Shown: one piece after another, positions 2,698-22,200 of the stretch
Position numbering within the stretch: the first letter of the stretch is position 1
Layout of the letters: every line of letters begins with the position of its first letter
Source of the DNA: Sinohyriopsis cumingii
Taxonomy: Eukaryota > Mollusca > Bivalvia > Unionida > Unionidae
DNA length: 64,000 bases
Reading direction: 5' to 3'
Assembly: GCA_028554795.2 (NCBI GenBank)
Contig: CM068842.1
Location: 48,257,574-48,321,573 of the forward strand
Made by a program: the position numbers and the translations under genes
The notes under the pieces: generated by a model
Seen by the model: only the letters and a program-made list of their open reading frames with translations
Databases searched by the model: none
What the model was told of the DNA's origin: nothing

Positions 2698-3122
2698 AAT
2701 TCCAGAGTTCTGTGGCTGTCCGAGGGGTTATTACTGGACGTCAGAGGCGTGTCTCCGCCCAAAATGGGGTTCTGATTATGGTTGGACTGGTGACTGACAC
2801 TGGCACTGGACACAAGGTTCTCGTTGTTCTCGTTGGAAGAGAATTTCAGGGAGGGATTGGGAAGCAGGTAACCGATGCAGCTGCTCAATAAAATGGTCCA
2901 CAATTGTTTGTCTCCTTGTTGAAAACTTAAATTGGCGATGGCTGCCCCGATGACACAATACACCACGAAGATTTGGCAGAAAAAGACGATTTGCATTTTA
3001 GGCACACGTTCTCCACACCACACCCACAAAGGTTGTTTTTGTAAATCTTGCAGAGAAGAACTAGGTGAAGGAGGAGTGGTCGACGTAGCTGCGTCTGCTG
3101 TGTGAAAGGGCATGATGGTCAC
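2694..3122 (-). CDS. Small membrane protein of the virion module
   Basis: The 142-aa ORF has a Ser/Pro-rich N-terminal 30 residues, then two hydrophobic segments, about residues 44-62 (MQIVFFCQIFVVYCVIGAA) and 76-88 (LWTILLSSCIGYL). The C-terminal 50 residues are polar and Asn/Ser-rich. A TATAAAAA box at 3,126-3,133 lies only a few bases upstream of the first ATG. Transcription from it would start inside the ORF and favour Met44 (position 2,993), directly before the first membrane segment; that start choice is inference. The gene overlaps the integrase stop and the penton-like start by 4 bp each. It is likely a membrane or envelope component; the precise function is unknown. Confidence 0.55.
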   Translation of the reverse strand: MTIMPFHTADAATSTTPPSPSSSLQDLQKQPLWVWCGERVPKMQIVFFCQIFVVYCVIGAAIANLSFQQGDKQLWTILLSSCIGYLLPNPSLKFSSNENNENLVSSASVSHQSNHNQNPILGGDTPLTSSNNPSDSHRTLEL

Positions 3123-4258
3123 TTCTTTTTATAGTCGATGACTTGCGAAGCGTCGATCCAAGAATCAAAACTGGGTGGATATCCTTTCCAACGTACTTTG
3201 ACTTCTTTGACACGTCGTTTGCCCACTTTACGGGTTCTGCGTTCGAGAATGCTTTCGATGTCGTACACGTCGTCTTCTTTTTTGGTGACACGTTGTAACT
3301 CGGGTAAATAAAACGTTCCTTTGAGTACTTCTCCGTTCATGTCTTCCAATTTATAGACGGTAGGATGACGGCCATGCACTCGTGCAGTGACGCGAAACAA
3401 TTCGGTCGTCCAGTTAGGTAAGTAACCTTTGTCGAAAGTGCGTTTGGTTTTGCCAATGCGCACCCAATCTCCTACGACCAACTCTCCACTTTTCTTGGGG
3501 ACAGCCCTCGTCGGGGACGTACCAAACAGACGCTCAAACACCAACACTTCGTTGTCGGGAGTCACGTCTTGCGGGGCACGTCCGATGCTTCGATGGTAAG
3601 ATTGGTTGTACGCTTGCACCAGGTGAGGTAAGATGTCGATGTACTTCAGAGTGTGGTGATGCGTAAAATATTTCCACATGCGTTCTTTCAAAGTGCGTTG
3701 AAAACGTTCCACGATGCTGGCTTTGGTTTCGGGATTCTCGGTGGTAAAAAAATGAATGTCACGTTTCTTTAATTCTTTTTGGAAAGCTTGGTTCAGAAAT
3801 TCGGTGCCTTTGTCCGTTTGCCATCGAAGAGGGTGACGACCGCTTTGTTTCAGCACCCGTTGCAGGGCTCGCACTAACTCGCTGCTCGATTTGGAAGTCA
3901 AGGGCACGACCCAGGCAAATTTGGAAAAGACGTCGATGACACAAAACAAATATTTGTAGCCACGATTGTAGCTGGCCAAATGAGAGACATCGGCTAAATC
4001 GGCTTGCCATTGATGATCGATGCCTTCCACTCGGGTGCGACTTCTGGCAAACTTGCGTCGAATGGGTTTGTGTAAAATGTAGGTAGCTTGTTCTTGTAAC
4101 CATCGTTGCACTTGAGGTAAACGGAGACTTTTCAATCGAGTTTTGGCAGCACGATACAATTTTTGAACCCCTGCGTAACCTGCAGGATGGGAGGGATCAT
4201 AGTAAATGCTGGCTAAGACTTTTTCCATTTTTTTTTTGTGTGTTAATAAGTCACCCAC
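3119..4258 (-). CDS. Polinton integrase: rve DDE domain plus C-terminal chromodomain
   Basis: This 379-aa protein inserts the element into host chromatin. The retroviral-type catalytic core spans about residues 75-245. D87 (in WQADLAD), D149 (in WQTDKGTEF) and E184 (in NPETKASIVERF) form the catalytic triad, with 34 residues between the last two. A basic SH3-like stretch follows. The last 55 residues are a chromodomain (YDIESILERR near the start, VRWKGYPPSFDSWI near the end), known in Polinton and chromovirus integrases as a tether to modified histones. It is of the F54H12.3-like type. The gene overlaps the next two genes by 16 bp (4,243-4,258) and 4 bp. The frame is intact with all catalytic residues present, so it could be functional. 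Confidence 0.92.
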   Translation of the reverse strand: MGDLLTHKKKMEKVLASIYYDPSHPAGYAGVQKLYRAAKTRLKSLRLPQVQRWLQEQATYILHKPIRRKFARSRTRVEGIDHQWQADLADVSHLASYNRGYKYLFCVIDVFSKFAWVVPLTSKSSSELVRALQRVLKQSGRHPLRWQTDKGTEFLNQAFQKELKKRDIHFFTTENPETKASIVERFQRTLKERMWKYFTHHHTLKYIDILPHLVQAYNQSYHRSIGRAPQDVTPDNEVLVFERLFGTSPTRAVPKKSGELVVGDWVRIGKTKRTFDKGYLPNWTTELFRVTARVHGRHPTVYKLEDMNGEVLKGTFYLPELQRVTKKEDDVYDIESILERRTRKVGKRRVKEVKVRWKGYPPSFDSWIDASQVIDYKKK

Positions 4259-6448: not shown

Positions 6449-7192
6449 TTATGGGGAGTGAAATGAAGTCGAGGACGGAGACGTGTACAGGACAGGCCCT
6501 CCGTCTTGGCACCAGTGGTGAAACAAGTGGGTACGAAATCGCAAATCCTCGGGAGTGGTAGGTTTCAAATCGACGAGTAAATAGGCGTGTGGCGTTTGGG
6601 TGGCATCGTCGTAGGCCTGAGTCAGCCAAGGCGTTCCTAACTGTTTGGCTAAGACTTGCACTTGCGATTTATCTCGAGGGCTTTTAAACAAGACCACGTA
6701 ATGCGCATTGAGACTGATGGTGCGATGGGCTTTACTTTGTTGAAACAAATTTTGGGTGATGTAAACGACACTGGCATTACGGTGATGCCCTTTGCGCGTA
6801 AACCACAGTTTAATTTCTTCTTCGTCTTCTCCTAACATGTCGTCGAAAATGACCAAATGGGTTTGACGGGAGTCCGAGACGATGCCGTCGTCTTCTTTAG
6901 GAATGCCTTCCACAAACACGATGGAATCGCCTTGACTTTCTCGCAAGAGGTTGTACGCCGATTGCCACTCTTTGTAACACCACACGATCCGTTGAGGTGG
7001 TCGATCGATCAAATGATGTTTATGTTCGATCAAACGTTTGACGAATTCGGTTTTGCCTGAACCGCTAGATCCAGCAATGAGCATGTTAAAAGGATGGCGA
7101 AGATACAAAGCCTCCCAACTGGCACGATCTAAGTGTTCGTCGATGACTTTGACAGTAAAGGAAGAGGGAGCAGAGACAGCAGAGGTAGCCAT
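6449..7192 (-). CDS. FtsK/HerA (A32-like) DNA packaging ATPase
   Basis: The 247-aa protein is a P-loop ATPase expected to pump element DNA into capsids. Walker A is GSSGSGKT (residues 41-48), preceded by the beta strand NMLIA. Walker B is THLVIFDDML (111-120). A conserved downstream strand reads ASVVYITQNLF, with the sensor-like Q/N, followed by LNAHYVVLFKSPRDKSQ, which is typical of the packaging ATPase family of Polintons, virophages and nucleocytoplasmic viruses. Length matches the family. The frame is intact with all motifs present. Its own promoter, a TATATAAA box at 7,239-7,246, lies about 50 bp upstream, next to the polyadenylation signal of the preceding gene. Confidence 0.93.
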   Translation of the reverse strand: MATSAVSAPSSFTVKVIDEHLDRASWEALYLRHPFNMLIAGSSGSGKTEFVKRLIEHKHHLIDRPPQRIVWCYKEWQSAYNLLRESQGDSIVFVEGIPKEDDGIVSDSRQTHLVIFDDMLGEDEEEIKLWFTRKGHHRNASVVYITQNLFQQSKAHRTISLNAHYVVLFKSPRDKSQVQVLAKQLGTPWLTQAYDDATQTPHAYLLVDLKPTTPEDLRFRTHLFHHWCQDGGPVLYTSPSSTSFHSP

Positions 7193-7791: not shown

Positions 7792-8006
7792 TGAGGTGGT
7801 AAGTACTGATCGTAAAGAGTCCACAAGGAATCGGCTGGTAAACGAAATCCCAGAAAACAAGTCACTAAGACACACACCACTTGTCGTCCCAAATTGAATG
7901 GATAAAGTTCTTGTAATAATCGATGGTAATGATCCACGGTTTGAATATGGTCATTGAGTTCCTTCCACGGAATCTGTTGAATGATATGTGACATAATCCG
8001 TGGCAT
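7782..8006 (-). CDS. Small protein, unknown function
   Basis: This is a 74-aa ORF with two possible starts (8,006 or Met5 at 7,994). A TATAAAA box at 8,017-8,023 lies just upstream. It has an amphipathic N-terminus (IIQQIPWKELNDHIQ) and one hydrophobic stretch (VVCVLVTCFLGFRLP). It overlaps the end of the upstream LP-E-LRERIY family gene by about 50 bp, which is long for this element, so one of the two may end or start elsewhere. No family is recognised. Confidence 0.4.
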   Translation of the reverse strand: MPRIMSHIIQQIPWKELNDHIQTVDHYHRLLQELYPFNLGRQVVCVLVTCFLGFRLPADSLWTLYDQYLPPQWP

Positions 8007-8475
8007 GGCAACTTGATTTTATAGTGTCTTTGTTTCGGAAGCAATAAATGTAATTTCTAACCAAACATGTTCGTTCTCCAGTAGGGAATTTAAATGTTAC
8101 ATACCGTAATTGAAACGTCAGAGTTTGTCTAGATGTTTCGTCTTTTTCTAAGCAGATTCCATGTAACAAATGTTGGTAATCCTTTAACTCGTCTTCCTCA
8201 ATACGTTGCAGTAAGTGAATCTCGAAGTAACCAAAATTACGAACGTCTGGTCCATCATCATCCCCAAACTGAAAGTGTTCAACAAGGTCTGACCACTGAA
8301 AAAATTTCTGACGGATCAGTCCTCTTATACCATTCAGGTACCAGTGGTTAAAGATCTGGTGACGTAACGGATGCAATTGCTCTTTACGTTTCACTTGTAT
8401 TTTCACCAGCTCTCGGTAAATCCTTTCTCTCAACTCCTCAGGCAAGCCCAAAATGTTCTCTTGTAAAGTATCCAT
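7951..8475 (-). CDS. LP-E-LRERIY family protein, copy 1 (F-box-like N-terminus)
   Basis: I start this at ATG 8,475 rather than 8,553 because the next copy (9,178) begins with the same residues (M-D/N-TLQENI). The 174-aa protein opens with TLQENILGLPEELRERIYRE, then VKRKEQLHPLRH and HWYLNGIRGLI. The LPxELRERIY motif resembles the start of F-box domains, which bind Skp1 in ubiquitin ligases; that resemblance is suggestive only. The C-terminal half has a conserved His/Leu segment (HLLQRIEEDELKDYQHL) and a Cys-containing end (CLVRNYIYC). It is a tandem paralogue of 8,723-9,178, probably a host-interaction gene family expanding within the element. Confidence 0.6.
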   Translation of the reverse strand: MDTLQENILGLPEELRERIYRELVKIQVKRKEQLHPLRHQIFNHWYLNGIRGLIRQKFFQWSDLVEHFQFGDDDGPDVRNFGYFEIHLLQRIEEDELKDYQHLLHGICLEKDETSRQTLTFQLRYVTFKFPTGERTCLVRNYIYCFRNKDTIKSSCHATDYVTYHSTDSVEGTQ

Positions 8476-8710
8476 AAGTATATACACTGTTTTTGGAATC
8501 CTTGGGTGGTGGCCAATAGCCTCGTTTAACTTTGTGCCTAATGTAATATCCACTCATAATCAGTCTTCTTGTACTTTGGAACATAGCATAATTTAAAAAC
8601 GGACGAATCACTTTGAGTTTGCGTTTCACTTGTATTTTGATCAGTTCTCGCTAAATGCGTTCTCTCAACTCCACAGGCAAAGCACGAACGTTCTCTAACA
8701 AAGTATCCAT
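8438..8710 (-). pseudogene. Broken third copy of the LP-E-LRERIY family
   Basis: An ATG at 8,710 opens the same N-terminal motif as the two flanking copies, but codon 20 is TAG (8,651-8,653) where the others encode Tyr of RERIY. Similarity continues to about VKRK (8,629) and then stops: the frame stays open to 8,438 but reads sequence unlike the family (LKVIRPFLNYAMF...) and runs into the start of copy 1. It is a 5' fragment left by unequal duplication or deletion, carrying a nonsense change. Confidence 0.65.
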
Positions 8711-8722
8711 GAATAGGTCATA

Positions 8723-9178
8723 CTAAATCCTCTTTGGTCTGACACAAGAAATGTACCGTTTGCACAAACATGGTTTTACTTCAGTGTCGAATTTAAATCG
8801 TTTAGTCACTAATTTGCACATTACAATTCGTTCAGAAGTTTCCTCTTTCACTAAGTTGACATTGTGTTCAAGATGTTGGTAATTCGTTAACTCTTCCTCT
8901 GGAATTCGATGCAGTAAGTTTACAATGATGTAGGTAGAATCGTCCATAACAAACCAATCCTTTTTAAAACTAGAGGATCGTTCATCAATGTCTGTCCGAT
9001 GGAACACTTTCAATTGAATCAGTCCTTGTATAGCCTTCAGGTACCAGTGGTTCAAACACCGGTGACGTAACGGATGCAATTGTTCTTTACGTTTCACTTG
9101 TATTTTGACCAGCTCTCGGTAAATGCGTTCTCTCAACTCCACAGGCAAAGTACGAATGTTCTCTTGTAAAGTATTCAT
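8723..9178 (-). CDS. LP-E-LRERIY family protein, copy 2 (F-box-like N-terminus)
   Basis: The 151-aa ORF parallels copy 1 over its full length. It has TLQENIRTLPVELRERIYRE, then VKRKEQLHPLRH, HWYLKAIQGLI, a middle LLHRIPEEELTNYQHL and a C-terminal Cys pattern (CLCKRYISC). The N-terminal 45 residues are nearly identical between the copies while the remainder has diverged strongly. That suggests either recent gene conversion of the 5' part or strong constraint on the motif with diversifying C-termini. It lies just downstream of the BIR gene in the same direction. Function is unknown; F-box-like adaptor activity is a hypothesis. Confidence 0.62.
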   Translation of the reverse strand: MNTLQENIRTLPVELRERIYRELVKIQVKRKEQLHPLRHRCLNHWYLKAIQGLIQLKVFHRTDIDERSSSFKKDWFVMDDSTYIIVNLLHRIPEEELTNYQHLEHNVNLVKEETSERIVMCKLVTKRFKFDTEVKPCLCKRYISCVRPKRI

Positions 9179-9204: not shown

Positions 9205-9813
9205 TCAATGTCTCGGTCCCACTAAGGGTAAGTAATGACAATTCGGTGACCATCGAGCATGTTCTACGTAGGCCGAATCTTGCGGTTCCCAGTGGTGAAG
9301 TGACACACCGCAACTGAAGCACCTGACTTTATCTCCTTCGCCCAAGTAGAAAAATCCGGCTCTGGCTAATTCTTCGGGGGTCGGTCCTCCCAGATACTTA
9401 GGCCATTTTCCTTTGAAGGATTGAAGACGATTTTCAAAGTCGCAGTATTCCGACAAACGCACAGGGAACGAATATTCGTCTTTCACAGGTTCGTTTCGAT
9501 GAGGGTTGAGTGACATGGGTAGGAGTTTGCTCAGGGCTGGATGACATCCGTAAGGGGGTAGACGTGAAGGTGAACATTCCCCTTTAAAACGAAACCCAGT
9601 AAAATGTCCAAGAGGACGAGCGGTATCCCTTTCGCATCCCTCAGGTTTGACACGCACAGCATCACTTTCCATGATAGGGGTAGTGACACTAAAGTTCCCA
9701 TGATGCTTTAGGCCATCGCTCAGGTCACAAGGTACAGCATCGTATCCATCACAAGGCTCACAATCGCATTCCACTTCCGAAGCCCCACACTTGAATTGTG
9801 CCTTTCTAAACAA
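9205..9813 (-). CDS. BIR-domain (IAP-like) protein
   Basis: The 202-aa protein carries one C-terminal baculoviral IAP repeat, about residues 128-195. It opens with RLQSFKGKWPKYL and reads GFFYLGEGDKVRCFSCGVSL through the first zinc ligands. The ligands are C165-x2-C168-x16-H185-x6-C192, the exact BIR spacing, with the usual Trp (HHW) after the first pair. There is no RING finger. The N-terminal 100 residues are Cys-rich (VECDCEPCDGYDAVPCD) and unrecognised. BIR proteins of animals and their viruses bind caspases or IAP antagonists and block apoptosis; that role here is inferred. A TATATAAAA box at 9,901-9,909 sits inside the end of PolB, giving the gene its own promoter. Confidence 0.9.
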   Translation of the reverse strand: MFRKAQFKCGASEVECDCEPCDGYDAVPCDLSDGLKHHGNFSVTTPIMESDAVRVKPEGCERDTARPLGHFTGFRFKGECSPSRLPPYGCHPALSKLLPMSLNPHRNEPVKDEYSFPVRLSEYCDFENRLQSFKGKWPKYLGGPTPEELARAGFFYLGEGDKVRCFSCGVSLHHWEPQDSAYVEHARWSPNCHYLPLVGPRH

Positions 9814-9888: not shown

Positions 9889-12800
9889 CTAGGGTTCCTT
9901 TTTTATATACAGACCAATACCGACGTGACCGTACGGCAACGTAAAGTGATTGGGAAGTCTCACTCGCTTCTGGTACACGATTTGATAGACTTTTTCCAAG
10001 GGCCGACTGACGATGTGGTGAGTGGGTAAACGTACAATTTTGTTCGGTTGATAGGTGGTCACTTTAAAGTTTGCATCCTCTCCCGATTGCAAGGCTTCTT
10101 TCAATACCCCAAAGTTCACCACACGACTGGTACGATGATTCAGAGTCAATCCTTTCACTTTACACGTCGTGTGCAATTCTCCTTGTGGGTCCCGGTATTC
10201 GTAGCCGTAATTTTTGGGACCACCACTGACGAAACTTAGAATCTTGTCGTCGGGGTGTTCGTCTGTCCAGGCTCCTAAACGGTCTCCTTCGATGTCTGGG
10301 TGATGTTGAATCGGGTGATGGATGTAAATGCAACTGTCCGTGTCAAAGTACAGGACGCGTTCCCCTAACAGTTCTAAAGCTTCGTACAATTTTAAGCGAG
10401 CATGAGCTGTCACGTAAGCCGCAATGATGACATTTCTAAAAGGGTCGTCTTGTACAAAGTCCAGATCTTCTTCGTAATTGACCAAGATCAAATCCTCGCG
10501 AACGACGTCCACGTGTTTCATGTATTTGGTTTTGTCGTGAATCATCTGGAAGTAGCGGGAAGGTTCTGTCAAATATTCCGTCTTGGGTAAACACGGTCGT
10601 TGTGCCATTTTACCCCACAAGCAATTTAACATCACTTTGGCAAACGACCGCCTGCCTTCGTTTTTCTCGATGTGGTCTAAAGTGATGCCTTCTTGTTCAT
10701 AGTATTTCTCTTTGAATTGTATTTGGTCTTCGGGAGTGTGACACCAGGAAGGATAGCCGCTGGCTTCTTGCTTCAGTTTCAAAAAGGCATCCACGTAGTC
10801 AGCGAAAATGCCTTTCTGACTGGGGTCACCCTTGTGGTATTGTTGTGTCTTGGGAAAGTGGCAAATTTCGTACACTTCTAACAGTTGGTATCCCATGTCC
10901 AAAGCTTTGAACAATTCTACGCTGACCCAGGTTACCGTCAAGGCCCGTTCTTCCTGGCTGTGATGACAAGGCTGGTCTTGGTTGCACGTTTCGGCACAAG
11001 TACGGCACAAGGGAAACATCAGTTTGCCTTGACAATGGTGAGGTAAGACGGGATGGTATAGGTTCGTGGGAGGCAAAACTTTACACTTGATCAAGCCTTC
11101 GTATTGTCGAATGTTGACCAGGTCGATGTGTTCCGTTAACAATTGTGGGTGCCCTACAGGAAAGCGACACTATTTGCACACGTAGGGATACAGCGAACAC
11201 ACGTCCAAGTATTGGATTTCTTCTCCTTTGTCTTTGTCGGCTTGGTACAGCAAACAGGTGGCATTGGTCCTTCCTCCGTACAAACTATCCCTCGGGTTCA
11301 GCGGGTCCATGAACTGGTAACTTTCCACGATGCGTTTAAACTCGGGATCGGTTTTCATACGGTGATCGTACTCGTGTTCCCACATTTCCACCACTTGGTA
11401 TCCTTGCTGTTCTAACTTTTGGCGCCGCTGACAAGTGTCCTGGTACAAGTCTTCCATGGTTCGTTGCAAAAACTGATTTTTAGTGCCACGGTCAGGGTAA
11501 CAGACGGGACATCCGTGAAATAAGCAACCGTTAAACTCGTACACGATCTTGGGGTTTTCTAAGTCCCAGCCATCGACCAAATACGTTCCGATGGTCTTTT
11601 CGCCTCCTCCGTTGCGGACATGCTAAATCCATTTTGTCTTCCTTGTCGCACAAGTAATGTAACCAACGTAGGGCTTTGACCGAGTATTGACGTTTGACAA
11701 AGTGGGTCGTTTGAGGGCTGATGACAGCCACGGTGTTTTCAGGCATGAATCGTTGTCGATACACTAAGGAACACGCTTTGGCAATGGTGCAAGCTTCTTT
11801 CAAAGGATCGACCCCTCCGTGTTCCATGAACAGTTCTCGAAATTTTCCACAGCAACGCCGTAAAATGTCCACGTCGGAACGACAATACTTTAGCATTTCT
11901 TCCTGAAAGTCGAAAGGGTCCGAAGCGTGAGCCTGGTACCACGCGTAGAAAGCTTCTCGTTGTTCGGTACGCATGTTGTCGGGGTCGTAATAGTGAGCCT
12001 CAGGCAAATGGGGTAGAACGGCGTGTTGATTGGCTTCCGTATTGAAAAAGTGTGGAAAGTACCCTTTAGCCATTTCTGTCATTCCAAACGTTTTAGGCAT
12101 TCGACTCAAAGGCATGGCCAAGTAACTCATCGAATCTTTAAACTGCACTTGTCCCACTTGCATGAAAATGATTTTGGCTCCGTTCAAAGTCACTTTAGGA
12201 CGCTCGGTGCCTTGTTCCGTATAGTATCTCAAAAGAAACTGTCCATCGTATCCGGAGAAATTGTGAGCCATCACCGTGGCATGACGATGACAATCTCCGT
12301 AACGTTCGATGTCCTCTTGGCTCCACGTCTTGTCGATGGGGTCTAAGACCCATCGAGCGAAATCGGCTAGCGTGTTCGGTCCCCGAAAGATTTTTTCACG
12401 TCCTCCGGGAATCTTGCTGCAGTGAGGGCAATGACTGAAGATAGGTTCTTGAATGCACTTCTCGCACGCTCGATGAGCCACGCAGAAATTAGGGATGTGA
12501 ATGCCAGTCTCTTGCATGCATTCAAAATCGAAAAAGATGAAATTCCCTTTCTTCTTTTGACCGTCCTCTTTCTCTGGTGGGGGTTGGTATTTTTGCACGT
12601 AGCATTGGTGTTCCAAGTCCACGATGTGGTGACAAATGTGACATTTTTTCTTTCCTCGACATACGTGTGCCTTGGCATTATTGGTAAGTATGCCTTATCC
12701 ACAGGTAGGGCACAATTTCAGAAGTTGACAAGCACATTTCTTCTGTGAACCTTGTGTTTTCAAATGTTGTTGGTAACAGGTAGGGCTGACAAACGTGCGT

Positions 12801-13945
12801 AGACAAGTTGAACAAGGCACTGGTTCTTCGCTCAGACAGGGTGGAGAGGCCAAACATCCTGAGCATTTCAATCCACAATGCTTGTGTTGCTCTCGATTAT
12901 TATAACCATAATCACATTTCTCACAATAATAAATATATCCCAGGAATCCAGTGATACTGGTAATGGTATCGAAATGGTCATCGTGATAATAGACATGAAT
13001 GTATTTTCCGTCCTTAAATTCTTGGCCTCGAAACAACAGAGGCCCGCGCATTTCTTGAGGGTGCACTTTCAAGGTGTAGCGTGGAGCTAGGGCATCTTGC
13101 AATTTTTGCATCTCAGGAATGCCACAGGGTGTGTCTTTGGACAGGCCAGCTTGTTGCAACAGGAGTTCTGCTTCATTTCGTTGTTTGGTTCGGTTCGATT
13201 TTCGAATGTTCTCCCAGGTTCTTTTCCATTCTACCGTGTCGTTCTTGTTGGCATAGGTTCGTCCCACCACGATGGCACGGGCTAAGCACATCTGGTCTTG
13301 AGGGTTGTTAATTCGGACGAGACTCTTTTTGGTGTTGCGAAGGTCGTCCACCAATAAAACCTTTTTGCGTCCAGTCCCTTGAGGAAGAGAAACGTGAGCC
13401 ATTTTCAGTGTGGCTTTTCCATCGGTGATGTCAAACTGGTCATTAGATTGTTGTACGTGTTGAATCTTGTCCATGATTTTGGAAGGGGTTAGTTCTGCGG
13501 GTCTGCTAAACTCGATCCAAACAGGGGATTTCAAACCGTCGTGATCTATGGATAGTGTCAAGCGATCGTGTTCTTTGGGTTGACATTGTCGCTTGAGTGC
13601 AGTGAGCAAAGAATCCCACATCTCGGTGATAAACCCTTCTGCTTTCTCTAAGGGTACGTCGGCCTTGAAATCTTTAAACTTTACCGTGTAGGTGTAAGCC
13701 GTGGTTCTAAATTTTCTAGAGGAGCGCTTTTCTGTCTCTCGAATGGAATAGTATTTTTCAGGGTTGACTAAGGGTGACGAACTTGGTTTAGAGGTTTCAA
13801 ATTCTGGTTCACTCATGTCCTCTTCAAAATCACTGGCATGCATTTGTGCCAAGATGTCAGCTCTGGTACGAGGCGATAGATCACGTTTCTGCCTCTTACT
13901 TTCGTCTTCTTCTTCTTTCTTCTCGAATGAATGGGATCGTTTCAT
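9889..13945 (-). pseudogene. polB: Protein-primed family B DNA polymerase, broken in three places
   Basis: The gene would encode about 1,350 aa replicating the element with a protein primer. Open pieces run 13,945-12,695 (N-terminal domain ending in Cys/His zinc-binding pairs), 12,622-11,531 (3'-5' exonuclease: FFDFE, HNFSGYDGQFLL, YCRSDVDIL), 11,580-11,170 (start of palm; motif A in LDVCSLYP) and 11,142-9,889 (KVMLNCLWGK as motif B, YFDTDS as motif C). The breaks are a frame change near 12,680-12,700 after the zinc-finger region, a second frame change near 11,615-11,630, and an in-frame TAG at 11,170-11,172 six codons after SLYP. Catalytic motifs are otherwise preserved, so inactivation is recent, or one or more breaks are assembly errors. 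Confidence 0.92.
9899..9909 (-). promoter_or_regulatory. TATA box of the BIR gene, inside the PolB 3' end
   Basis: The minus strand reads TATATAAAAAA, about 87-96 bp before the BIR ATG (9,813), within the last codons of the polymerase. Transcription would start near 9,875. Confidence 0.5.
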
Positions 13946-14067: not shown

Positions 14068-14538
14068 ATGGAAGAGACTAACCAAATCGAACGTTTCGTC
14101 AGAGCTTTGCGAGGAGTCATTAGAAAATTCTCTTCAGACCAGCCTACGGACTACTCTCCTTCTTTTCGAGATAAAAGTCAAGATACTTGCTATATCTGTC
14201 AGAAGAAGGGACATTGGTCTTCAGAGTGTCCAGACCGTCAAAAAAGAACAAAAACAGGGGCTAAAAAAGACAAAAGTCAAGATACCTGTTATTATTGCAA
14301 AGAAAAAGGACACTGGTCTCCAGATTGCCCAAAAAAGAAACAAGAGGAGTCAGAAGAAAAAGGGAATTCTTCAGAAGAAGAGAGGGATTCTTCGGAAGAA
14401 GAGAACGATTTTTCAGAGGAAGAAAGCAGACAGGTGAAGAAAAAGAAACAGGAGAAGAAAAGAAGAAGGGAAGAAAGCGAGGAGGAAGAAGAGGAAAAGA
14501 GTGTGACGGTGAAAAAATTCAAAAAACAGAGAGACTAA
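14068..14538 (+). CDS. Two-zinc-knuckle (CCHC) protein with Ser/Glu and Lys-rich tail
   Basis: The 156-aa protein starts at ATG 14,068. An in-frame ATG at 14,020 lies only about 6 bp after the TATA box and would be upstream of the transcript start. Two CCHC knuckles of the C-x2-C-x4-H-x4-C type are seen: CYICQKKGHWSSEC (residues 41-54) and CYYCKEKGHWSPDC (74-87). Each is preceded by DKSQDT, so the second arose by internal duplication of about 33 residues. After residue 90 the sequence is Ser/Glu-rich (candidate CK2-type sites) and then Lys/Arg-rich. It is the only rightward gene of the main module. Such knuckles bind single-stranded nucleic acid; a replication, packaging or RNA-binding role is inferred. 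Confidence 0.75.
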   Translation: MEETNQIERFVRALRGVIRKFSSDQPTDYSPSFRDKSQDTCYICQKKGHWSSECPDRQKRTKTGAKKDKSQDTCYYCKEKGHWSPDCPKKKQEESEEKGNSSEEERDSSEEENDFSEEESRQVKKKKQEKKRRREESEEEEEEKSVTVKKFKKQRD

Positions 14539-14570: not shown

Positions 14571-14576
14571 ATTAAA
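14571..14576 (+). terminator. ATTAAA polyadenylation signal
   Basis: ATTAAA lies 32 bp after the stop codon of the zinc-knuckle gene and is followed by a TG-rich stretch, as expected for a conventional polyadenylation site. This contrasts with the stem-loop ends of the next two genes. Confidence 0.45.
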
Positions 14577-14762
14577 GTGTTGTGTTGTGAATTGTGAATT
14601 GGATTGTAAAAAAATGGATAAAAGAATACATTAATGATATAAGGTAAGTGTCTTTGAGTTTTGATTTTAAAATAAGAACGTACACTCACGTACTCATAGA
14701 CAGAAACGTACTATATGGGTAAAATGGGTGGGGTTTTTATTTTTTATTTTTTTTTAGTTATT

Positions 14763-14822
14763 GGCAAATTGAAATTGTATTTCTTTTCGAGAAATGTGGG
14801 TGGCCCTGAAAAGGGCCTTTTT
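14763..14822 (-). repeat. Inverted repeat arm 1 (histone-type 3' end)
   Basis: About 60 bp that match, as reverse complement and with a few mismatches, the segment at 15,897-15,956. The shared block includes a 16-base stem-loop, a purine-rich CTCGAAAAGA element and flanking CAATTGAAA-like sequence. The arms face outward from the divergent gene pair between them, so each arm is the 3' end of one gene. Confidence 0.8.
14802..14817 (-). promoter_or_regulatory. Histone-type mRNA 3' stem-loop of the 192-aa gene
   Basis: The minus-strand transcript reads AAAGGCCCTTTTCAGGGCC followed by ACCCA. That is a 6-bp GGCCCT/AGGGCC stem, a TTTC loop and the A-rich 5' and ACCCA 3' flanks that define the metazoan replication-dependent histone mRNA end bound by SLBP. 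It starts 27 bases after the stop codon (14,845). About 10 bases downstream comes TCTCGAAAAGAAAT, placed and composed like the purine-rich histone downstream element paired by U7 snRNA. No AATAAA lies between stop and stem-loop. Confidence 0.82.
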
Positions 14823-14844
14823 TCTTTATGGTGAAGGGGTGAGT

Positions 14845-15423
14845 TTAAGCAATCAACTTTAACTGCCTTAAGCCTTTGCCACGGCCAAGGCCTACTTCTG
14901 GACTGCGTAATGTTGATGATGATGATTGGGTTGAAATCACTAAGGGTGGTACGGTAGGCTTAGTCACAGGGTTGACGTGTTTAGCTCGGGAAGGTCGTAT
15001 TCTCTTCGGTCGTAATAAAGAAGTCTGATACATTTGTTTCAGACTTCTTAACTCCGCTACAATGTCCAACAGTACCGTGACCGTTTGATTTTCACCCTCT
15101 TGTTTCTTTGCTGCTACTTCTTCTTGCTGTTGTTGCTGTTGTTTTTTTCTTACCTCTTCTTCTTGCTGCTGTTGCTGTAGGAGAAAAGCTTGTTCCGCTT
15201 CCTTTCGTCGTTGTATAAATTTCTCCAATTCTTCTTTCTGTCTCTGTCTAAAATTCTTCACTTGCGGTAATGAAGAAGGTAACGCAGGTTCCGGAACAAA
15301 TTCTTGCGAGGAGAGAAAATCCACAAAATCCCAATTCACCTCTTCTGAAAGTAAGTCCGGGTTCCCTTGGACAGTCTCCCCTGTTGGTGCACCCCAATGG
15401 ATCGTTTTCTGAGTTTCCGTCAT
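14845..15423 (-). CDS. Gln/Glu-rich coiled-coil protein with histone-type 3' end
   Basis: The 192-aa ORF has an acidic N-terminus (NWDFVDFLSSQEFVPEP), a long Gln/Glu/Lys-rich segment (about residues 58-110, with runs of Gln) predicted as coiled coil, a heptad-like LLDIVAELRSLKQMYQ, and a basic C-terminus (KRIRPSRAKHV, then GLGRGKGLRQLK). It is not a histone. A TATA-like CTATATAG at 15,471-15,478 lies 48 bp upstream in a promoter shared with the divergent 77-aa gene. Its message would end in a histone-type stem-loop 27 bases past the stop, predicting S-phase-linked, non-polyadenylated mRNA. Function is unknown. Confidence 0.65.
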   Translation of the reverse strand: MTETQKTIHWGAPTGETVQGNPDLLSEEVNWDFVDFLSSQEFVPEPALPSSLPQVKNFRQRQKEELEKFIQRRKEAEQAFLLQQQQQEEEVRKKQQQQQQEEVAAKKQEGENQTVTVLLDIVAELRSLKQMYQTSLLRPKRIRPSRAKHVNPVTKPTVPPLVISTQSSSSTLRSPEVGLGRGKGLRQLKLIA

Positions 15424-15470
15424 GTTGAATCACTGTCGCATAGATTGACTGCACACAAGCGCTAACGAAT

Positions 15471-15598
15471 CTATATAGACCACGTGACGTCACAGACTGC
15501 TCTCTTCGGATTGGATGCGAGCTGACTGAATTTTGTAACGCGTGTTCGGATTGGTGAATGAACTCAATCCGTTTCAATCCTTCCTCTGCCTATAAATA
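15471..15598. promoter_or_regulatory. Bidirectional promoter with CRE, E-box and CCAAT boxes
   Basis: The 219-bp gap between the two divergent start codons holds CTATATAG (15,471-15,478) for the leftward gene and TATAAATA (15,591-15,598) for the rightward gene. Between them are CACGTG (15,481-15,486) overlapping the palindromic CRE TGACGTCA (15,485-15,492), and two exact copies of TTCGGATTGG (15,505-15,514 and 15,545-15,554), each containing an inverted CCAAT box. This resembles the promoters of divergent histone gene pairs. Confidence 0.6.
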
Positions 15599-15642
15599 AG
15601 CGCAGTTCACTGCATTGATTCACCTGTTCTCGTCGCTTCAAG

Positions 15643-15876
15643 ATGTGGACCACACTTGAGTCATCCACCCTTGTGTCTTCCATGATGTTTAGGACGGACA
15701 TGCTCATGTATGTCCGGTCCAAGTGGACTATTGTTGATAGGACAGATACTAGTCTATGGATGAGAAGAGTTTACATAGAAAGACAAGGATGTCTCAAGAG
15801 GGTACATGTGTATGGACCTGCAGTTAGAAGGAGTTTAAGAAGAAGAAGAAGATGTGACAGATGCCATCTATGTTAA
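15643..15876 (+). CDS. Arginine-rich 77-aa protein with histone-type 3' end
   Basis: The ATG lies 45 bp after a TATAAATA box. The first 50 residues contain repeated Met/Ser/Thr and strand-like segments (RSKWTIVDRTD, LWMRRVYIERQ). The C-terminus is very basic and Cys-ended (GPAVRRSLRRRRRCDRCHLC), resembling a protamine- or pX-like DNA-binding tail with a possible Cys/His zinc or disulphide site. It is not a histone. Its transcript would reach a histone-type stem-loop 24 bases after the stop. A small nucleic-acid-condensing protein made during S phase is an attractive but unproven reading. Confidence 0.6.
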   Translation: MWTTLESSTLVSSMMFRTDMLMYVRSKWTIVDRTDTSLWMRRVYIERQGCLKRVHVYGPAVRRSLRRRRRCDRCHLC

Positions 15877-15896
15877 TATTAATATTAACATAAAAC

Positions 15897-15956
15897 CAAA
15901 GGCCCTTTTCAGGGCCAGCCATATTTCTCGAAAAGAGATAGCCTTTCAATTGCCTA
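15897..15956 (+). repeat. Inverted repeat arm 2 (histone-type 3' end)
   Basis: This is the partner of 14,763-14,822. Similarity covers the stem-loop, the purine-rich element and the CAATTG-containing flank, and ends before the AT-rich block at 15,961. It implies that the two gene ends descend from one sequence by inverted duplication. Confidence 0.8.
15901..15916 (+). promoter_or_regulatory. Histone-type mRNA 3' stem-loop of the 77-aa gene
   Basis: CCAAA then GGCCCTTTTCAGGGCC then AGCCA: the same six-base-pair stem, TTTC loop and flanks as the metazoan histone 3' end, with one change in the 3' flank (AGCCA for ACCCA). It is followed 11 bases later by CTCGAAAAGAGATAG, a purine-rich candidate histone downstream element. 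It begins 24 bases after the TAA at 15,874-15,876. Confidence 0.85.
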
Positions 15957-15960
15957 CCCC

Positions 15961-16230
15961 TTTTTTTTAAATTTAAATTTAAATTTAAATTTAAAAAAAA
16001 TTTTAAAAAAAATAAAAAAATCCCATATTCAATTCCCCTTGTCCCTAGACAAGCCCCAAACTCTATTCCCATGTTAATTTCCCTTGTCCCTAGACAGACC
16101 CAAACTCTATGTTAAATTCCCATTGTCCCTAAAGTGACCCACGATTTTTCTCCATGTTAAATTTCCATTGTCCCTAAAGTGACCCAGGGGTCTTTTTAAT
16201 GCTAAGTCCCATTGTCCCTAAAGTGACCGA
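15961..16230. repeat. AT-rich block and short tandem repeats at the probable element end
   Basis: A run of T and repeated AAATTT units (15,961-16,020) is followed by five imperfect units of 42-46 bp, each with TTGTCCCTA (two as TTGTCCCTAGACA, three as TTGTCCCTAAAGTGACC). After 16,230 this pattern ends. Such arrays are plausible subterminal repeats of the element; no terminal inverted repeat can be tested because the other end is outside. Confidence 0.5.
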
Positions 16231-17150
16231 CTTTACTACTCGTATTCTTGAACGTTTAATGGTTGGCTAGATCGAGGTGTCGCATTGGCAGGCTTTTCAC
16301 TCAAATTATTGACATGCTTAATTGATATATTTGATATTTCGTCCTCAAAAAATCTCGAGTTTTTTGGTTTTACAACCTGAAAATCTATATGGGGCTTGGA
16401 ATTAGATTATGGGGCTAACTGAACAGCAAACAAGTTTAATTTATTGTCCAAAATTTCAAGAGAGTTTCATTTATTTGATACGAGTTTTTCACAGACCTTT
16501 ATCATGAGTTATGTTAATAGTGAGAGAAATAAAATCTTCTGTTTACTTTGAAATTTATTTCTTACTATTTTTTATGCTAAATTTCCCGAAACGTTTTTCG
16601 CATTTCGTTTGGGAAATCTGATTGTCTTCAAAATGAATGGCATTGTTTTCTTTGAATGTCGCACGGCCATAATAATTAAGCTGATAGACAACCTGAAGAT
16701 CTGGAACTAAAATGTATAAAATGTTTCGTCAATGTTCATATATCAGATAAAATCGAGCTGAATTAAAGATATATCATGCACATGGGAGATCGTCAGAGGC
16801 AAGTGCCATGCTAGGTCACTGAAATACAGTATTTATAGTACAGCCACTTACCACCTTCTTGGTAGTGTCGGAAGAGTTTTCTGTTTGCGGGGTGGAAGGC
16901 ATTATTTATGAATGTTGAAAGAAAAACGTACATTCTCTTATTGTAATTTATCGCTTCATTTATCTACAAGCTCTATATAATCTCCTTGTTCACGTACTTA
17001 AGAATTCAGAGCTAAGTGAATACCATCCACAACTTGACAAAAGGTCTGAGTTACGTATAACACATTATTTGTTGACGTCAATTAATCAAGGTCAAGACTA
17101 ACATTTAAAGTCTACATCCATCACATATTTTCCGTGGCGGATAATCTAAA
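16231..17150. other. No gene recognised; one weak exon candidate
   Basis: AT-rich sequence without a convincing ORF. One weak candidate on the minus strand is a 51-bp coding piece, 16,902 down to 16,852. It starts with ATG, encodes MPSTPQTENSSDTTKKV and ends at a canonical GTAAGT donor (16,846-16,851). Without a matching downstream exon it remains speculative. Confidence 0.3.
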
Positions 17151-17159
17151 TCTTGGTTT

Positions 17160-18425
17160 CGTGAACGTCTGTTTGGAGACGTATAATTTTGAGTAGATGC
17201 AATGCTTTCACGCAAAAGTCTTGATCTTGCCCTGGCAGTAAAGCTTCTTTCAAAACGTCAAAGTTGACTACTTTACTGGAACGATAGTTTAGTGTCAGTT
17301 TTTTTATTTTACACTTGGTGTGTATTTACTCCTGTTGGTCTCTGTATTGGTATCCGTAATTTTTGGAGCTACCGCTGGCGAAACTGAAAATGGTGTCTTC
17401 TGAGTGCTCGTCCATCAATGCACCTAACGGTCCCCTTTCGATGTTTGTGGATGATTGAGACCTATGGATCTTCATACAGCTGTTAGTTTGAAAATGAAGG
17501 ACTCGATCTCCTAAAAACTACAAAGTATCATACAACTTTAAACTGACATCTAGTGTCACGTGCGTTGCAATACGGCATCTCTAAACTGGTCGGGAGGTGC
17601 AAACACTCTCTCATCTCCGTAATAGACCTATATCACATTTTCAAGGAGGATGTTTACGTGTGCCATGATTCTTTCCTTTTTAGTCACCAGTTGAAAGTAG
17701 CCACTTAGATCTGCCAAGTAGTCTGTCTTGGGTAATATCGGACGTTGCGCCTATTTTCCCTACAAACGATTCGACACGACTTTAGCGAACGATCGTCTTT
17801 ATTCTTTCTTTTCCACGTATTCCAATGTGATACCTTCAAAGGATCTGTCTCGTTATTTAATGTTTCATTGTCTTCTGGACTCGAACTCGAAGATGGATAA
17901 TCACAAACTTCATGTTTCAATTTGAGAAACTCGTTGACGAGGCCAGAAAAATCCCTTTTTGGAGCCATCGTGCTCAATATTGTTCTATAGTAGGAAATTG
18001 TCAAATTTGGAATATTTTGAGCAGATGTTATCCACAGTCCAGAGCAGGAAACAATTCCACACTCATCCCCTTTCCATCGAATAGTGTTATTCGTCATTGT
18101 AGCAACATGGTTGATCTTGATTACATGTTTTAGCAAACATAAATCATGAAAGAAACATCAGGTTTATTTTGCTACGATGTTGTAGGAGAGCATGTTAAAA
18201 AAATGAGTTAGGGGTAAGACTTTGCATTTGATCAATCATTTGTATTGACGAATGATTTCCTCGTCTATGTGATAAACATTTCAGTGTGCCCTGTGAGAAA
18301 TCTGTATATCCAAGAATATCGATAACACACGTACTTGATTTATTTCGACGGGATTCTTCCACGTCGTACAGCAACAGTGCCTCATTGGTTCGTCCTCCAA
18401 ACAAGCTATCATCAGCATTATTAAC
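17160..18425 (-). pseudogene. Decayed second PolB, C-terminal and palm part
   Basis: On the minus strand many short frames match the intact-looking polymerase at 9.9-11.3 kb in order. Examples are GGRTNEALLLYD at the upstream end (about 18,400), a piece matching the KNEGRR region (about 17,820), and DNA near 17,250-17,500 matching the segments after motif C. Stops and frame changes occur every 50-200 bp. The copy is far older than the polymerase of the main element but in the same orientation. Confidence 0.8.
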
Positions 18426-18809
18426 AGAAGTAAATATGTTTATTAGGGTTTAGGTCAAGATTATTGAAATTTACCTGGTCTACCTGACATAATCAAGGTC
18501 CTCTATTTTAATATTAATAATAGGTTTCTAATAACAACTAAAATTTTTATTTTGTGAACATCAGTTATTTTCCATTAGGTAATATTTTCTTTAAAGAAAA
18601 TGCTAATTGTGACCTGAGTTCAAGTTGAAGACTATATAATCTTGTCACTGAATGGAAAATTCATTCATGCTTTAAGTTATAGCACAATCAAGTCGTATTA
18701 TATATTGTGTACTGTATTTCGTTTCGGGCTGGAATCTAATTCTTCAAATTTATGAATTACAGTGATTAATTTCTCCGGAAATACAAAAGTGCTTTAATAA
18801 AATTACTGG
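18426..18809. other. No feature recognised
   Basis: AT-rich sequence between the decayed polymerase and the solo LTR. It should correspond to the polymerase segment between exonuclease and palm if the remnant were collinear, but I see no residual similarity. The last 5 bp (ACTGG, 18,805-18,809) are the left target duplication of the LTR. Confidence 0.4.
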
Positions 18810-19990
18810 TGTGAAGTGGCAAATTTTATGTCGATCTAACAAGAATACATTAGTGGAGACCAGAGAACCATTAATTAGATTTATGGAGACAAGCGCGTAT
18901 CATATCGCCATACTACCGTATACGGTAATGTCCTTTAGAGGGAGAATTCTGTTCCTAATTAAACATTTGTTTATACAGCAGCCAGGCGGATTATTAAGGA
19001 CAAGGAAAACTTCATTTTCATGGTAAAGTTGTCACAATTGAGAGAACGCAGAAACTCTGTTACTCAAACTACCAGGGTCAAGCTGACCCTGACTTTGGCG
19101 CCTCTGGAAAAAGGCGGCAGAGATATTTGATTCTGATTGGTTACGTTAAATGAGAGGGCGTGTTCCAACACAAAATTTCATAGGTTTTAATATCGCCCGC
19201 ATCGAATTTAAATCAATCTATACTTTTCCTGCAAGAGGAGACCCAAAAAATAGGACTCCGGGAATTTGCAAGAAATTTCCGTAAAACAACTGTTGTTCAA
19301 AAGGGGACTAATGTCGAAAGGAACCGATGAACTAATTTACCGATTAGAGGGAGGAACGTTGAAAGCAAAGGGAGAAAATAGCTCCTGAGACGATGAGACC
19401 TCTGAGACGTATTATCCTGAGACGCAATATGCTGAGACGTATGGGAAGTATGAGACGTATTATCCTGTGACGCAATCCTGCGATGTATTAATTTATGAAG
19501 ACATATTCTGAGAATATCCTGAGACGGATGGTAGAAAGATCATCCTGAGATCCAAGGGTCTGAACAGTTACAGAGAAAGCAAAACAGACTGAGGACGAGC
19601 AGGTTATGAAATCGTGAAGGACGTTGACTTCGATTGTCCACTCGATCCCATGATGAATTAAATCTATCAGTAAACAGATCGACTATTTTATTTAAATCTA
19701 TTTGCGTTTTTCTTTGTATTTCGGTGAAAGTTAAATTTCTAAAAGCAGAGTACATTCCTGATGTAATGAATTTTCAGTGTTTGTATGTAATTGATTAAAT
19801 TGTTTGTTTACATGTACGGGGTCTCGTGTTGGTTTGTTCTATATACCTGCTCAGATCTCTATCTATTTCACCTATAAGTTTCACCACTTATATTTACAAT
19901 TACTCGAACCGGGCAATAACATCGAGGGCGGTCAACCCCTAGATAACGAAAACCAAATACGGAGTGACAATCACTCCCCTCGTTTTAACA
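18810..19990 (+). mobile_element. Solo LTR of the Gypsy element, target duplication ACTGG
   Basis: The sequence begins TGTGAAGTGGCAAATTTTAT and ends near CGTTTTAACA. It matches, in reverse orientation, the LTRs at 37,545-39,314 and 43,675-45,415 at both ends. ACTGG is found directly on both sides (18,805-18,809 and 19,991-19,995), the 5-bp duplication expected of Gypsy integration. At 1,181 bp it is about 590 bp shorter than the intact LTRs, lacking their middle, and carries a local array of TGAGACG-like units (about 19,385-19,540). It is older than the full-length copy. Confidence 0.92.
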
Positions 19991-20329
19991 ACTGGATAGA
20001 GACATTCACTAGAATTTATAGTGAATTCAAATCTGGAATTACATTACTGTGATTCAACCAAAGACTGTTGGCACATTAACACTCTACAAGTTACAACAGA
20101 CACATCAACACCTTCAGATTTGGAGTTAATTTGAACTTCTACTAAATTTTATTCAGGACTTTAAATCATTAGTACTTGTGTCTGTAATTCTGGAATAATT
20201 TTGGGATTTAATTCACAATACCGTAAGTTCTTCATTTTCATTTTCACTTTGTATATGAGGAAAATAATTTGCTTGTTGAATGTTACAAAGCCTATTGCTT
20301 TTCACTACTTTATGTTACTTATTTTAAGA

Positions 20330-22200
20330 GCATAGACTCGTAACAACTTTTTTCGATCGAATAATCCACACGTTTTAGCGATGGTAGAAGCTTCGTTGAA
20401 AGGATCTATACCTCTATGATCCAGAAATAATTTCAAAACTTTTTTTTACAACATCGACGTGCAATGTTCCAGTCAAGACGGCAATACTTAACATTACTTC
20501 ATGAAAGTTGAACGTGTTTAAAGAGTGGATTTGGTACCAAGCGTAGAGTCGTTCTCTTTGTTCTGTGTGCATACCATCATGGTCGATGGTCGTAGTAGCG
20601 TTCGTCGGGCAAACGCTTCAGCACAACGTGCTGATTAGCTTCGATATAGAAAAAGTGTGGAAAATAACCTTTGGCCATTTCTGTCATTCCAAATATTTTA
20701 GTTATGGCCAAATAACTAGTAGAATTTTTAAATTGTACCTATTCCACTAGAATTTTTCTCCGTGCATGGTGACTGTGGGTCATTCGGTGCCTCGTACAGA
20801 ATAATATTTCAAAAGAAATTGTTCGTCGTAACCGGAGAAATTGTGAGCAATGACAGTAGTAAATCGATGGCAGTCCCCGTAACTCTGGATATCCTCTTTG
20901 CTCAAGTATTACGATTGGGTCTAAATTTAATTAGGCAAAATCGGCAAGACTCCATGAGACCAGGAATTATTTTTTCACGTCCTCCTGTACGTTCTTCACA
21001 ACTGGAACACAAATATAGACTATCGCATGCGTTTCTCACAAGTACCAGAATGTGAATACCATTTTCTTGCTTACATTCAAAGTACAAAAAGAAATTAAAT
21101 CCATTTGTTTGTTTTTCTTCTGTTGCTGATCTTCCTCTCAGTCTTATGTCATTTCATTGTCATCCTTTTGTATGTAGTATTGATCCTTGAAGTCAACGAT
21201 TTAGTCATAAAAACGACATCTTTGCCTTTCTGGCATCATTGGTTTGAATAAGATTCACAAGTGGAGCACATTGTAAATAATTATCAAGTACTTTCCTGAT
21301 GTTCAGCTTGCTTCATACGATGTTGTTAGTAACACGATGGACTGACAAAGATTTGCTTGCAAAAAGAGCAATTATTTCGTTCTGTTCCCAGGAATTCATG
21401 GTTGAGTCGCTAAACAGAACCGACATCTCTCGCGACAATACTTGTGTTGGTCCAGATCGGTAAATCCTTGACCACATTTCTAGCAATAGTAAGCGTATCT
21501 AAGAAATCATGTGATATTAATAATTGCATCGAAACGCTCTTGAAGATGATACATAGGACAGTATTTCCGTCTGGAGAATCGGGTCCTCACAACATGAGAG
21601 CTCTGTGAATGGCTTGAGAATATACCTTTGCCATATAGCGAGATGCCAACACAGCTTGTAGTTTTGGCATTTCAGGATTTGCCACATGGTCTCCTCAGAA
21701 GTCTCTACTTGATGTAAAAGGACTTCTGTTTGTCTCTGTCCGATTTTAGTTGCTCTCCAACGATCTTTTCCATTCTGCGGTCTTGTTCTCCTCTATATAG
21801 GGTCTACCCACTATGATTACACAGTGAACACATCTGATCTTGAGAGGCGACAGCTTGGTCTTGCGAATTTCGTCAATCAATATTACTTTTCTGCGTCCTC
21901 TATCTCTAAGAGGTAAAACCTGTTTCATGGCTTTTCCATCGGTGAGTGGATTGTTGAACGTGTTGAATTTTGTCAATAACTTTGGAAGGTGTTACTTCTG
22001 CCGGTGTACTAAATTGGAGACAGACAGGAGATTTTCCAACTATCTTGATGGATGGAGAGTCTGAATGGAACTTCCTCTGTGGCTTGCCATTAGGCCTACC
22101 ATCTAAATGTTTCTAACAAGGAATCCCACAGGTCTGTTATGAAACCTGATGCTTAAATTTTTACTACGTATGTATAATCCATGATTCTAAATTTTCTGTA
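20330..22200 (-). pseudogene. Decayed second PolB, exonuclease and N-terminal part
   Basis: Minus-strand fragments parallel the polymerase at 11.74-13.7 kb in order. They include sequence matching the exonuclease region (20,340-21,100, with FECKQENGIHI near 21,080), then the Cys/His zinc-finger region (21,250-21,500), then the N-terminal domain (about 21,750-21,980, with RDRGRRKVILIDEIRKTK and VGRPYIEENKTAEWKR). The frame is broken many times. With 17,160-18,425 it forms one old gene separated by the LTR insertion and a replaced stretch. Confidence 0.8.

Follow-up and report, generated by a model that had tools for sequence, protein, structure and literature searches.

The window analysed here, a 64,000-nucleotide (nt) stretch of the genome of the bivalve Sinohyriopsis cumingii (GenBank assembly GCA_028554795.2, contig CM068842.1, positions 48,257,574–48,321,573), contains most of one complete 20-kb Polinton, an adintovirus-like element. 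The right end of this element carries a divergent pair of small genes, p192 (192 amino acids; 14845–15423, −) and p77 (77 amino acids; 15643–15876, +), each followed by a stem-loop of the type that ends replication-dependent histone mRNAs. An earlier note on this DNA had described the hairpin GGCCCT-TTTC-AGGGCC after both genes, and the 16-mer is present exactly at 14802–14817 (−) and 15901–15916 (+), 27 and 24 nt past the respective stop codons. The histone-type surroundings that it described are likewise borne out. The 3′ flanks are ACCCA (p192) and AGCCA (p77), then CTCGAAAAGA, and each gene has a purine-rich downstream element (TCGAAAAGA at 14782–14790 (−) for p192 and TCGAAAAGAGA at 15928–15938 (+) for p77) in which GAAAAG starts 13 nt past the hairpin, a spacing also found in host histone genes. 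The Rfam covariance model Histone3 (RF00032; gathering score 34) matches both hairpins over its full length (1–46 of 46), at 14778–14822 (41.2 bits, E 9.6e-9) and 15896–15941 (35.6 bits, E 1.2e-6), and this pair is the sole RNA-family match in the window at gathering score. With two mismatches allowed, two matches to the 16-mer arose in none of 100 dinucleotide-shuffled versions of the window, and the folding z-scores of the two hairpins are −3.98 (equalled by 0 of 200 shuffles) and −3.03 (by 2 of 200).

Neither protein is a histone, again as the earlier note had it: p192, which has a basic PKR.RPSRAK stretch, and p77 have no match in Pfam, histones included, or in PHROGs at E 0.1. Among 5.8 billion database proteins p192 has 20 relatives (57–96% identical) and p77 has one, whose contig has the same length and sources (1455 bases, jgi and ena) as the contig of a p192 relative, suggesting that the two genes stay together elsewhere. 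Among the p192 relatives, P0012 (65% identical in protein) reads through the usual stop, and its tail WPISGPPTSLEKRY resembles the window 3′ end read in one frame, RPFSGPPTFLEKKY. Judged from its protein sequence, P0012 seems to have both the hairpin and the purine element in almost unaltered form, one or more bases beside the loop being different.

The complete element measures 20,149 bp and consists of the left part of the window plus 3,909 bp beyond the left window edge (L142:5966–9874, where L142 is a stretch read across that edge and holds the same element); the hairpin-ended p192/p77 segment is its right end. The right terminal inverted repeat (15892–16240, +) is 96.8% identical over 349 aligned nt to the left repeat (L142:5966–6309), the repeat tips are AGTAGT and ACTACT, and the p77 hairpin lies at the inner edge of the right repeat. 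A 6-bp target-site duplication, CGTATT, adjoins the element at 16241–16246 (+) and L142:5960–5965. The DNA polymerase B (PolB) region (9889–13945, −) comprises four open reading frames (ORFs), two of which match PF03175, the viral/organellar type of family B (E 2.7e-16 and 3.7e-8). A retrovirus-type integrase with chromodomain is encoded at 3119–4228 (−; rve E 2e-14, Chromo E 1.2e-7) and a packaging-type ATPase (Pox_A32/FtsK) at 6449–7192 (−; Pox_A32 E 3.2e-8, above cut-off). Because it combines terminal repeats, a 6-bp duplication, PolB, an integrase with chromodomain and a packaging-type ATPase, the element is a Polinton.

Left of the window lie three further small hairpin-ended genes, so that the element has five. 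Genes A (MCSKLAKLNE...), B (MSSRLTKLME...) and C (MASNQMDKMQ...) are arranged in tandem and point to the left tip, with a hairpin after each, at L142:8041–8056 (−), L142:7101–7116 (−) and L142:6285–6300 (−), respectively. The starts of A and C were assigned from the frames of copies, the frame in this copy being open further upstream. The C hairpin scores above the Histone3 cut-off (35.6); those of A (29.3) and B (21.9) score below it and have an A-U closing pair instead of G-C, with a U-G pair in addition in B. None of the three proteins has a Pfam histone match, and C has one sub-cut-off match (DUF5427, E 0.006). The isoelectric points are moderately basic for p192, A and C (9.2–9.5), near neutral for B (6.6) and very basic for p77 (11.0). 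Elsewhere in the element the ends are of another kind: in the long gene block whose last member is a protease-like gene, the final stop is followed 115 nt on by AATAAA and then by GT-rich sequence, and a CCHC zinc-knuckle gene (14068–14538, +), which has no histone hairpin, is followed 33 nt after its stop by a poly(A)-type signal (ATTAAA at 14571) and again by GT-rich sequence. Two kinds of mRNA end thus appear to be used within one element.

The earlier note proposed a comparison with the species' own histone genes, and its outcome is positive in both hairpin kind and GAAAAG spacing. The host histone genes form tandem repeats of about 8.3 kb, with 114 H4 matches in the genome, and their ends were read from two stretches, L158 and L159. 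Each of H1, H2A, H2B, H3 and H4 has a hairpin, with loops TTTC, TTTT or TTTA, scoring 35.0–39.4 bits with Histone3 in L158. GAAAAG starts 13 or 14 nt past the hairpin in all five element ends and all five host ends, compared with 219 of 127,920 random window positions. Over the 45 nt past the hairpin, GAAAAG included, the likeness of element to host ends exceeds that of shuffled sequences (z 1.2 to 6.4 in 25 comparisons); by this score p192 is closest to H2A, and p77 and C are closest to H2B, while the element ends generally resemble one another more closely than they do host ends (z 3.6 to 14.9). From the GAAAAG and spacing shared with host histone genes, the purine element is predicted to be a site of pairing with U7 small nuclear RNA (snRNA), with TCGAAAAGAG as the predicted partner of host U7 in the element 3′ ends. 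Rfam RF00066 found no U7 snRNA in the host and none in 14 control genomes either, so this search is uninformative.

The 16-mer hairpin by itself proves nothing, because GGCYCTTTTCAGRGCC occurs in 101 stretches of IMG/VR viral contigs, of which one carries an AGCCA flank and none carries GAAAAG at the spacing of histone genes. Histone3 gave no match at gathering score over 15 of these 101 viral loci, and the hairpin with an ACCCA flank has no match in IMG/VR. Searches of the same database with the integrase, the 192-residue alignment and the capsid alignment gave no confirmed relative.

The histone likeness extends to promoters. The word GTCCGCGC stands upstream of host H4, H2B and H1 and occurs five times in the element, once before A and twice each before B and C; the 64-kb window has no occurrence. 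Gene B and the host H4 promoter share the exact 21-mer TTTCTTTTAGGTCCGCGCGTT, and TCACGTCCGCGCT is common to A, B, C and host H2B and H1 inside a longer similar block. The longest words shared with host promoters are 7 to 12 nt for 150 random element-core stretches, 9 for p192 and 8 for p77. Local alignment of A, B and C with H2B and H1 gives scores of 22–25, reached by none of 300 shuffles, compared with 6–12 for 11 core-gene upstream regions. The region upstream of p77 aligns with the host H2A promoter over about 90 nt (score 21, reached by none of 300 shuffles). The intergenic region from which p192 and p77 diverge (15424–15642) has a TATA sequence at 15591–15599 (+), TATATA about 54 nt before the p192 start (−) and ATTGG, of the CCAAT box type, at 15510 and 15550. 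The case for histone-type promoters therefore appears strong for A, B and C, suggestive for p77 and absent for p192. Promoter word and hairpin also go together: of the 56 promoter-word sites in the initial 3.1 Mb of contig C1, 40 are followed on the same strand by an exact hairpin no more than 1,200 nt away (random placement gives a mean of 0.98), and none is followed by an opposite-strand hairpin within that distance.

Genome-wide counts, made on the 2.9-Gb genome, place these signals in a very large family. The hairpin with GAAAAG has 52,797 exact matches (26,132 + 26,665; reversed pattern 0) and the promoter block GTTTTCCNTCACGTCCGCGC has 31,863 (15,748 + 16,115; reversed control 0). Dividing the match counts by four and up to five sites per element gives an estimate of the order of 10,000 copies, whole or partial. 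From the 114 H4 matches we estimate about 550 host histone ends, which the element signals would outnumber by some ninety to one.

Absence of the hairpins from orthologous copies would have counted against the earlier note, and they are kept. In 20 copies picked irrespective of hairpin from 150 listed by a p192 protein search (95–98% identical to p192 in protein), all 20 have the exact p192 16-mer, an ACC[CA]A flank and TCTCGAAAAGA. On the p77 side, where one of the 20 slices reads N, all 19 readable copies have hairpin and GAAAAG, 18 exactly and one with a C-to-T change that keeps a U-G pair. A Histone3 scan of same-genome copies, which the note had also suggested, gave 16 matches above cut-off in 11 large loci, ten of them selected for a hairpin. 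The order candidate capsid gene, A, B, C, with A, B and C each before its hairpin, is kept in copies L136, L137 and L140; copy L141 has A and B in that order and a third hairpin without an intact frame before it. Among 30 hairpin-chosen 3-kb loci, none matches H2A, H2B, H3 or H4 by tblastn. Twelve of the 30 lack p192 and p77 and resemble one another. As candidates for host histone genes these were rejected: the seven that were read in 9.9-kb context contain left-end genes of other copies, six of them with the capsid candidate in the same stretch, and the remaining five were read within the 3-kb stretch. Two copies are unusual in arrangement. L133 (4733–7067) carries two tandem p77/p192 pairs, with a separate hairpin for each p77 and with one p192 match spanning residues 1–143 only, and in L132 (5233–9044) C- and B-type hairpins flank the p77/p192 pair, perhaps reflecting one element inserted into another.

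We consider it about 80% probable that the five small non-histone genes at the two ends of the element use the 3′ end type of the host's replication-dependent histone genes, and that the three left ones also use the histone promoter word. The mRNAs of p192, p77, A, B and C are then probably poly(A)-less and linked to S phase. In the mechanism that we propose, the stem-loop of each of the five transcripts would be bound by SLBP, and the U7 small nuclear ribonucleoprotein (snRNP) would direct cleavage after the hairpin and before the purine element, so that the mRNA has no poly(A) tail. Because they share the host histone promoter word, A, B and C would peak in transcription in S phase, when the element DNA can be copied; their carrying this word lends the S-phase timing added support. 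Such an arrangement would give an integrated element a simple clock, in which small terminal genes are switched on in S phase without splicing or poly(A), and the outermost hairpins, placed within the terminal repeats, would make both outward transcripts stop short of the tips. The signals may have been captured from host histone genes.

Several observations weigh against this reading. The case for processing and timing is built from DNA sequence. A pattern search for host U7 snRNA gave 10 matches (reversed control 3), all of which were read and none of which is convincing; two lie in what reads like Polinton integrase, and L210 and L206, with a foldable 3′ side (−10.3 and −6.9 kcal/mol), are still unconvincing as U7. 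GAAAAGAAA, the stretch counted as purine element, is changed at 10 of 115 bases among the 13 copies compared below, no less than the 5′ untranslated region (22 of 308). The p77 3′ flank AGCCA departs from ACCCA and varies among copies, being present in 14 of 19 and variable in five. Neither p192 nor p77 has GTCCGCGC, and the p192 promoter matches no host histone promoter beyond chance. The p77–H2A promoter score of 21 is barely above the best of 1500 controls (19); it ranges from 17 to 24 in seven other copies, two of them at 19 and one at 17. Sixteen of the 56 promoter-word sites lack an exact hairpin nearby. Since many copies are almost identical, their agreement is partly a matter of recent descent. 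Histone3 has no match in two Polinton fragments from bacterial metagenome-assembled genomes (MAGs) that are 40–42% alike in the capsid candidate, although neither fragment has a p192, p77 or PolB match and they may not hold comparable end regions. Finally, AATAAA occurs downstream of both window hairpins in this copy, at 16011 (+) and at 14748 and 14741 (−).

This last point favours the reading that the hairpins are SLBP-binding mRNA elements whose transcripts are mostly cleaved and polyadenylated further on, so that the hairpin would tune stability or translation and nothing else. One of the five host histone ends likewise has AATAAA within 150 nt downstream. Over the copies, however, AATAAA within that distance is not enriched (5 of 57 hairpins, compared with 343 of 2554 background stretches). 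The purine element would moreover be useless under such polyadenylation, and yet GAAAAG stands at the host spacing in five of five element genes. We regard this alternative as unlikely, though it fares best among those considered.

Rather less probable still is that the hairpins are relics, pieces of histone genes picked up by chance that hitchhike without function. The likeness to host histone ends does reach past the hairpin (the z-scores of 1.2 to 6.4 above), as capture would leave it. The pattern of variation speaks against a relic. The comparison used 13 copies chosen by the p77 hairpin; loci without both hairpins were dropped, as were L111, L112 and L131, whose selection had relied on the p192 hairpin. 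In these 13 copies the p192 hairpin departs from the window sequence at 4 of 207 aligned bases, with one more base in a gap. The stretch downstream of it is changed at 49 of 370 bases (Fisher p 1.4e-6 against the hairpin), and changes affect 20 of 91 bases in the spacer, 173 of 2835 in the intergenic region (p 0.009 against the hairpin) and 348 of 7304 in the p192 coding sequence. In 74 hairpins with AAAAG or AAAAA downstream, stem pair 1 is G-C in 57, A-U in 14 and broken in three, pairs 2 and 3 are broken once each and pairs 4 to 6 are invariant; in two gene classes A-U replaces G-C on both sides of the stem. The stems persist while synonymous difference among copies reaches 0.40–0.55 per site in p77, B and C, and promoter word and hairpin co-occur. 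Pooled ratios of nonsynonymous to synonymous change (dN/dS) over distinct intact frames, broken frames being left out, are 0.49 for p192 (12 frames), 0.16 for p77 (14), 0.24 for A (7), 0.24 for B (9) and 0.18 for C (7). These pooled values, taken as point estimates, lie below 1 and so speak for the five as real protein genes.

A role at the level of DNA, with the hairpins serving as cruciforms or as replication or transposition sites of the terminal repeats, would suit the outermost two hairpins (those of C and p77), which lie inside the terminal inverted repeats, but the other three lie outside them. In ten large copies, 28 of 31 hairpins follow a same-strand frame that ends 15–93 nt upstream (under 40 nt in 24 of the 28), and the downstream element is asymmetric, making such a role highly improbable. 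That the segment is a degraded host histone cluster present by accident, as the earlier note had considered, can be practically dismissed, for although hairpin, promoter word and purine element are histone-like, none of the 30 hairpin loci encodes H2A, H2B, H3 or H4 and the genes are part of a complete element flanked by a target duplication, in a family with 52,797 hairpin and GAAAAG matches.

The preferred reading, that element genes use histone-type signals, has a stronger form that we hold tentatively, at somewhat short of an even chance. The five non-histone genes may have been turned into 'histone-type' genes, by their 3′ end in all five and by their promoter in at least three, giving S-phase, poly(A)-less mRNAs that are possibly made in the histone locus body via the shared promoter word. 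Elements of this kind could then compete on a large scale for SLBP, U7 and the histone locus body, because more than 50,000 element processing signals stand against the roughly 550 estimated for host histone genes.

Both parts of this system are known, and it is their union, a Polinton with a histone-type mRNA end, that is new. Rotavirus and other viruses have mRNAs without poly(A); to our knowledge, such non-polyadenylated viral mRNAs are not known to use SLBP/U7 processing. The element shares with metazoan replication-dependent histone genes the kind of hairpin, the flanks, GAAAAG with its spacing and short single-frame genes, and A, B and C share the word of the host's own histone promoters, whereas none of the five products is a histone and the genes sit in a mobile element of very many copies. 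With Polinton/Maverick elements and adintoviruses it shares terminal inverted repeats, the 6-bp duplication, PolB, an integrase with chromodomain, an ATPase and putative protease and capsid genes, and it differs from them in the histone-type ends of its terminal genes. Among titles and abstracts of the openly licensed literature we found no precedent for histone-type ends in a Polinton or other virus, which is weak evidence of absence. According to passages of an adintovirus survey (PMC11071296), an adintovirus has a PolB with an N-terminal OTU-like domain; words beginning 'histone' occur twice in that survey and 'stem-loop' does not occur, and its histone passages concern histone-like proteins rather than mRNA ends. 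Bracovirus histone H4, as a passage of a 2026 paper describes it (PMC12819152), is likewise a case of a virus engaging the host histone system, but the bracovirus encodes a histone and the element has histone-like regulatory parts only.

The same paper states, in the passage concerned, that in animals no protein-coding transcripts other than S-phase histone mRNAs lack poly(A) (PMC12819152). If our reading is right, five non-histone genes break this rule, and a mobile element has a new way of tying its expression to host DNA replication. The family would amount to a natural experiment, with the same end placed on unrelated coding sequences, in two stem variants and thousands of copies, alongside the histone genes that it resembles. 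Two questions become testable: whether SLBP and U7 require any histone-coding context, and whether the histone promoter word is sufficient to bring a gene to the histone locus body. Such transcripts would escape RNA sequencing after poly(A) selection, and elements of this kind may therefore be mistaken for silent ones.

Two further Polinton-type genes of the element are less firmly assigned. The protease-like gene, left of the window, has a weak match to adenovirus protease (Peptidase_C5, E 0.005, 17 bits, below the curated cut-off of 21.3). The candidate major capsid protein (1–1263, −) has no Pfam match by which to place it among double jelly-roll capsids, and its label comes from the names of its relatives. 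It has 1273 of these, and among the 120 listed the animal-named ones are 'F54H12.2-like' proteins of bivalves (Mercenaria, Crassostrea, Ostrea and Saccostrea), with one more in the bacterial MAG Thiodiazotropha. We take the 'F54H12.2-like' name to be a mark of Polinton capsids, and the penton label is likewise our assumption. The two bacterial MAGs with the Polinton fragments compared above (L180 and L181, in GTDB; Thiodubiliella from a Bathymodiolus host, and Breoghania) probably contain these genes through host contamination.

The four PolB ORFs are separated by gaps of about 70–180 nt. Since the PolB matches in copies L133 and L138 split at similar places, these gaps may be introns rather than damage. 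A database protein, P0020, has the p192 N terminus joined to a piece resembling the first PolB ORF and is perhaps a deletion derivative or an assembly chimera. Beside the PolB region the Polinton holds a BIR (inhibitor of apoptosis) domain gene (9205–9672, −; E 3.2e-24) and a tandem gene duplicate (7951–9178, −) encoding proteins of 174 and 151 amino acids that are 53% identical, with a third remnant at 8618–8710. Within the terminal inverted repeat, a repeat of about 45 nt (CCCATTGTCCCTAAAGTGACCC type) is present in five copies at 16021–16238. Older, diverged Polinton pieces lie elsewhere in the window, at 17170–22200 and 49585–51281, and have no histone hairpin at the Rfam gathering score. 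The window also contains a retrotransposon-like ORF of 565 amino acids (39385–41082) with RNase H and integrase domains and, alongside it, a second long ORF of 647 amino acids (region 39385–43067, −).

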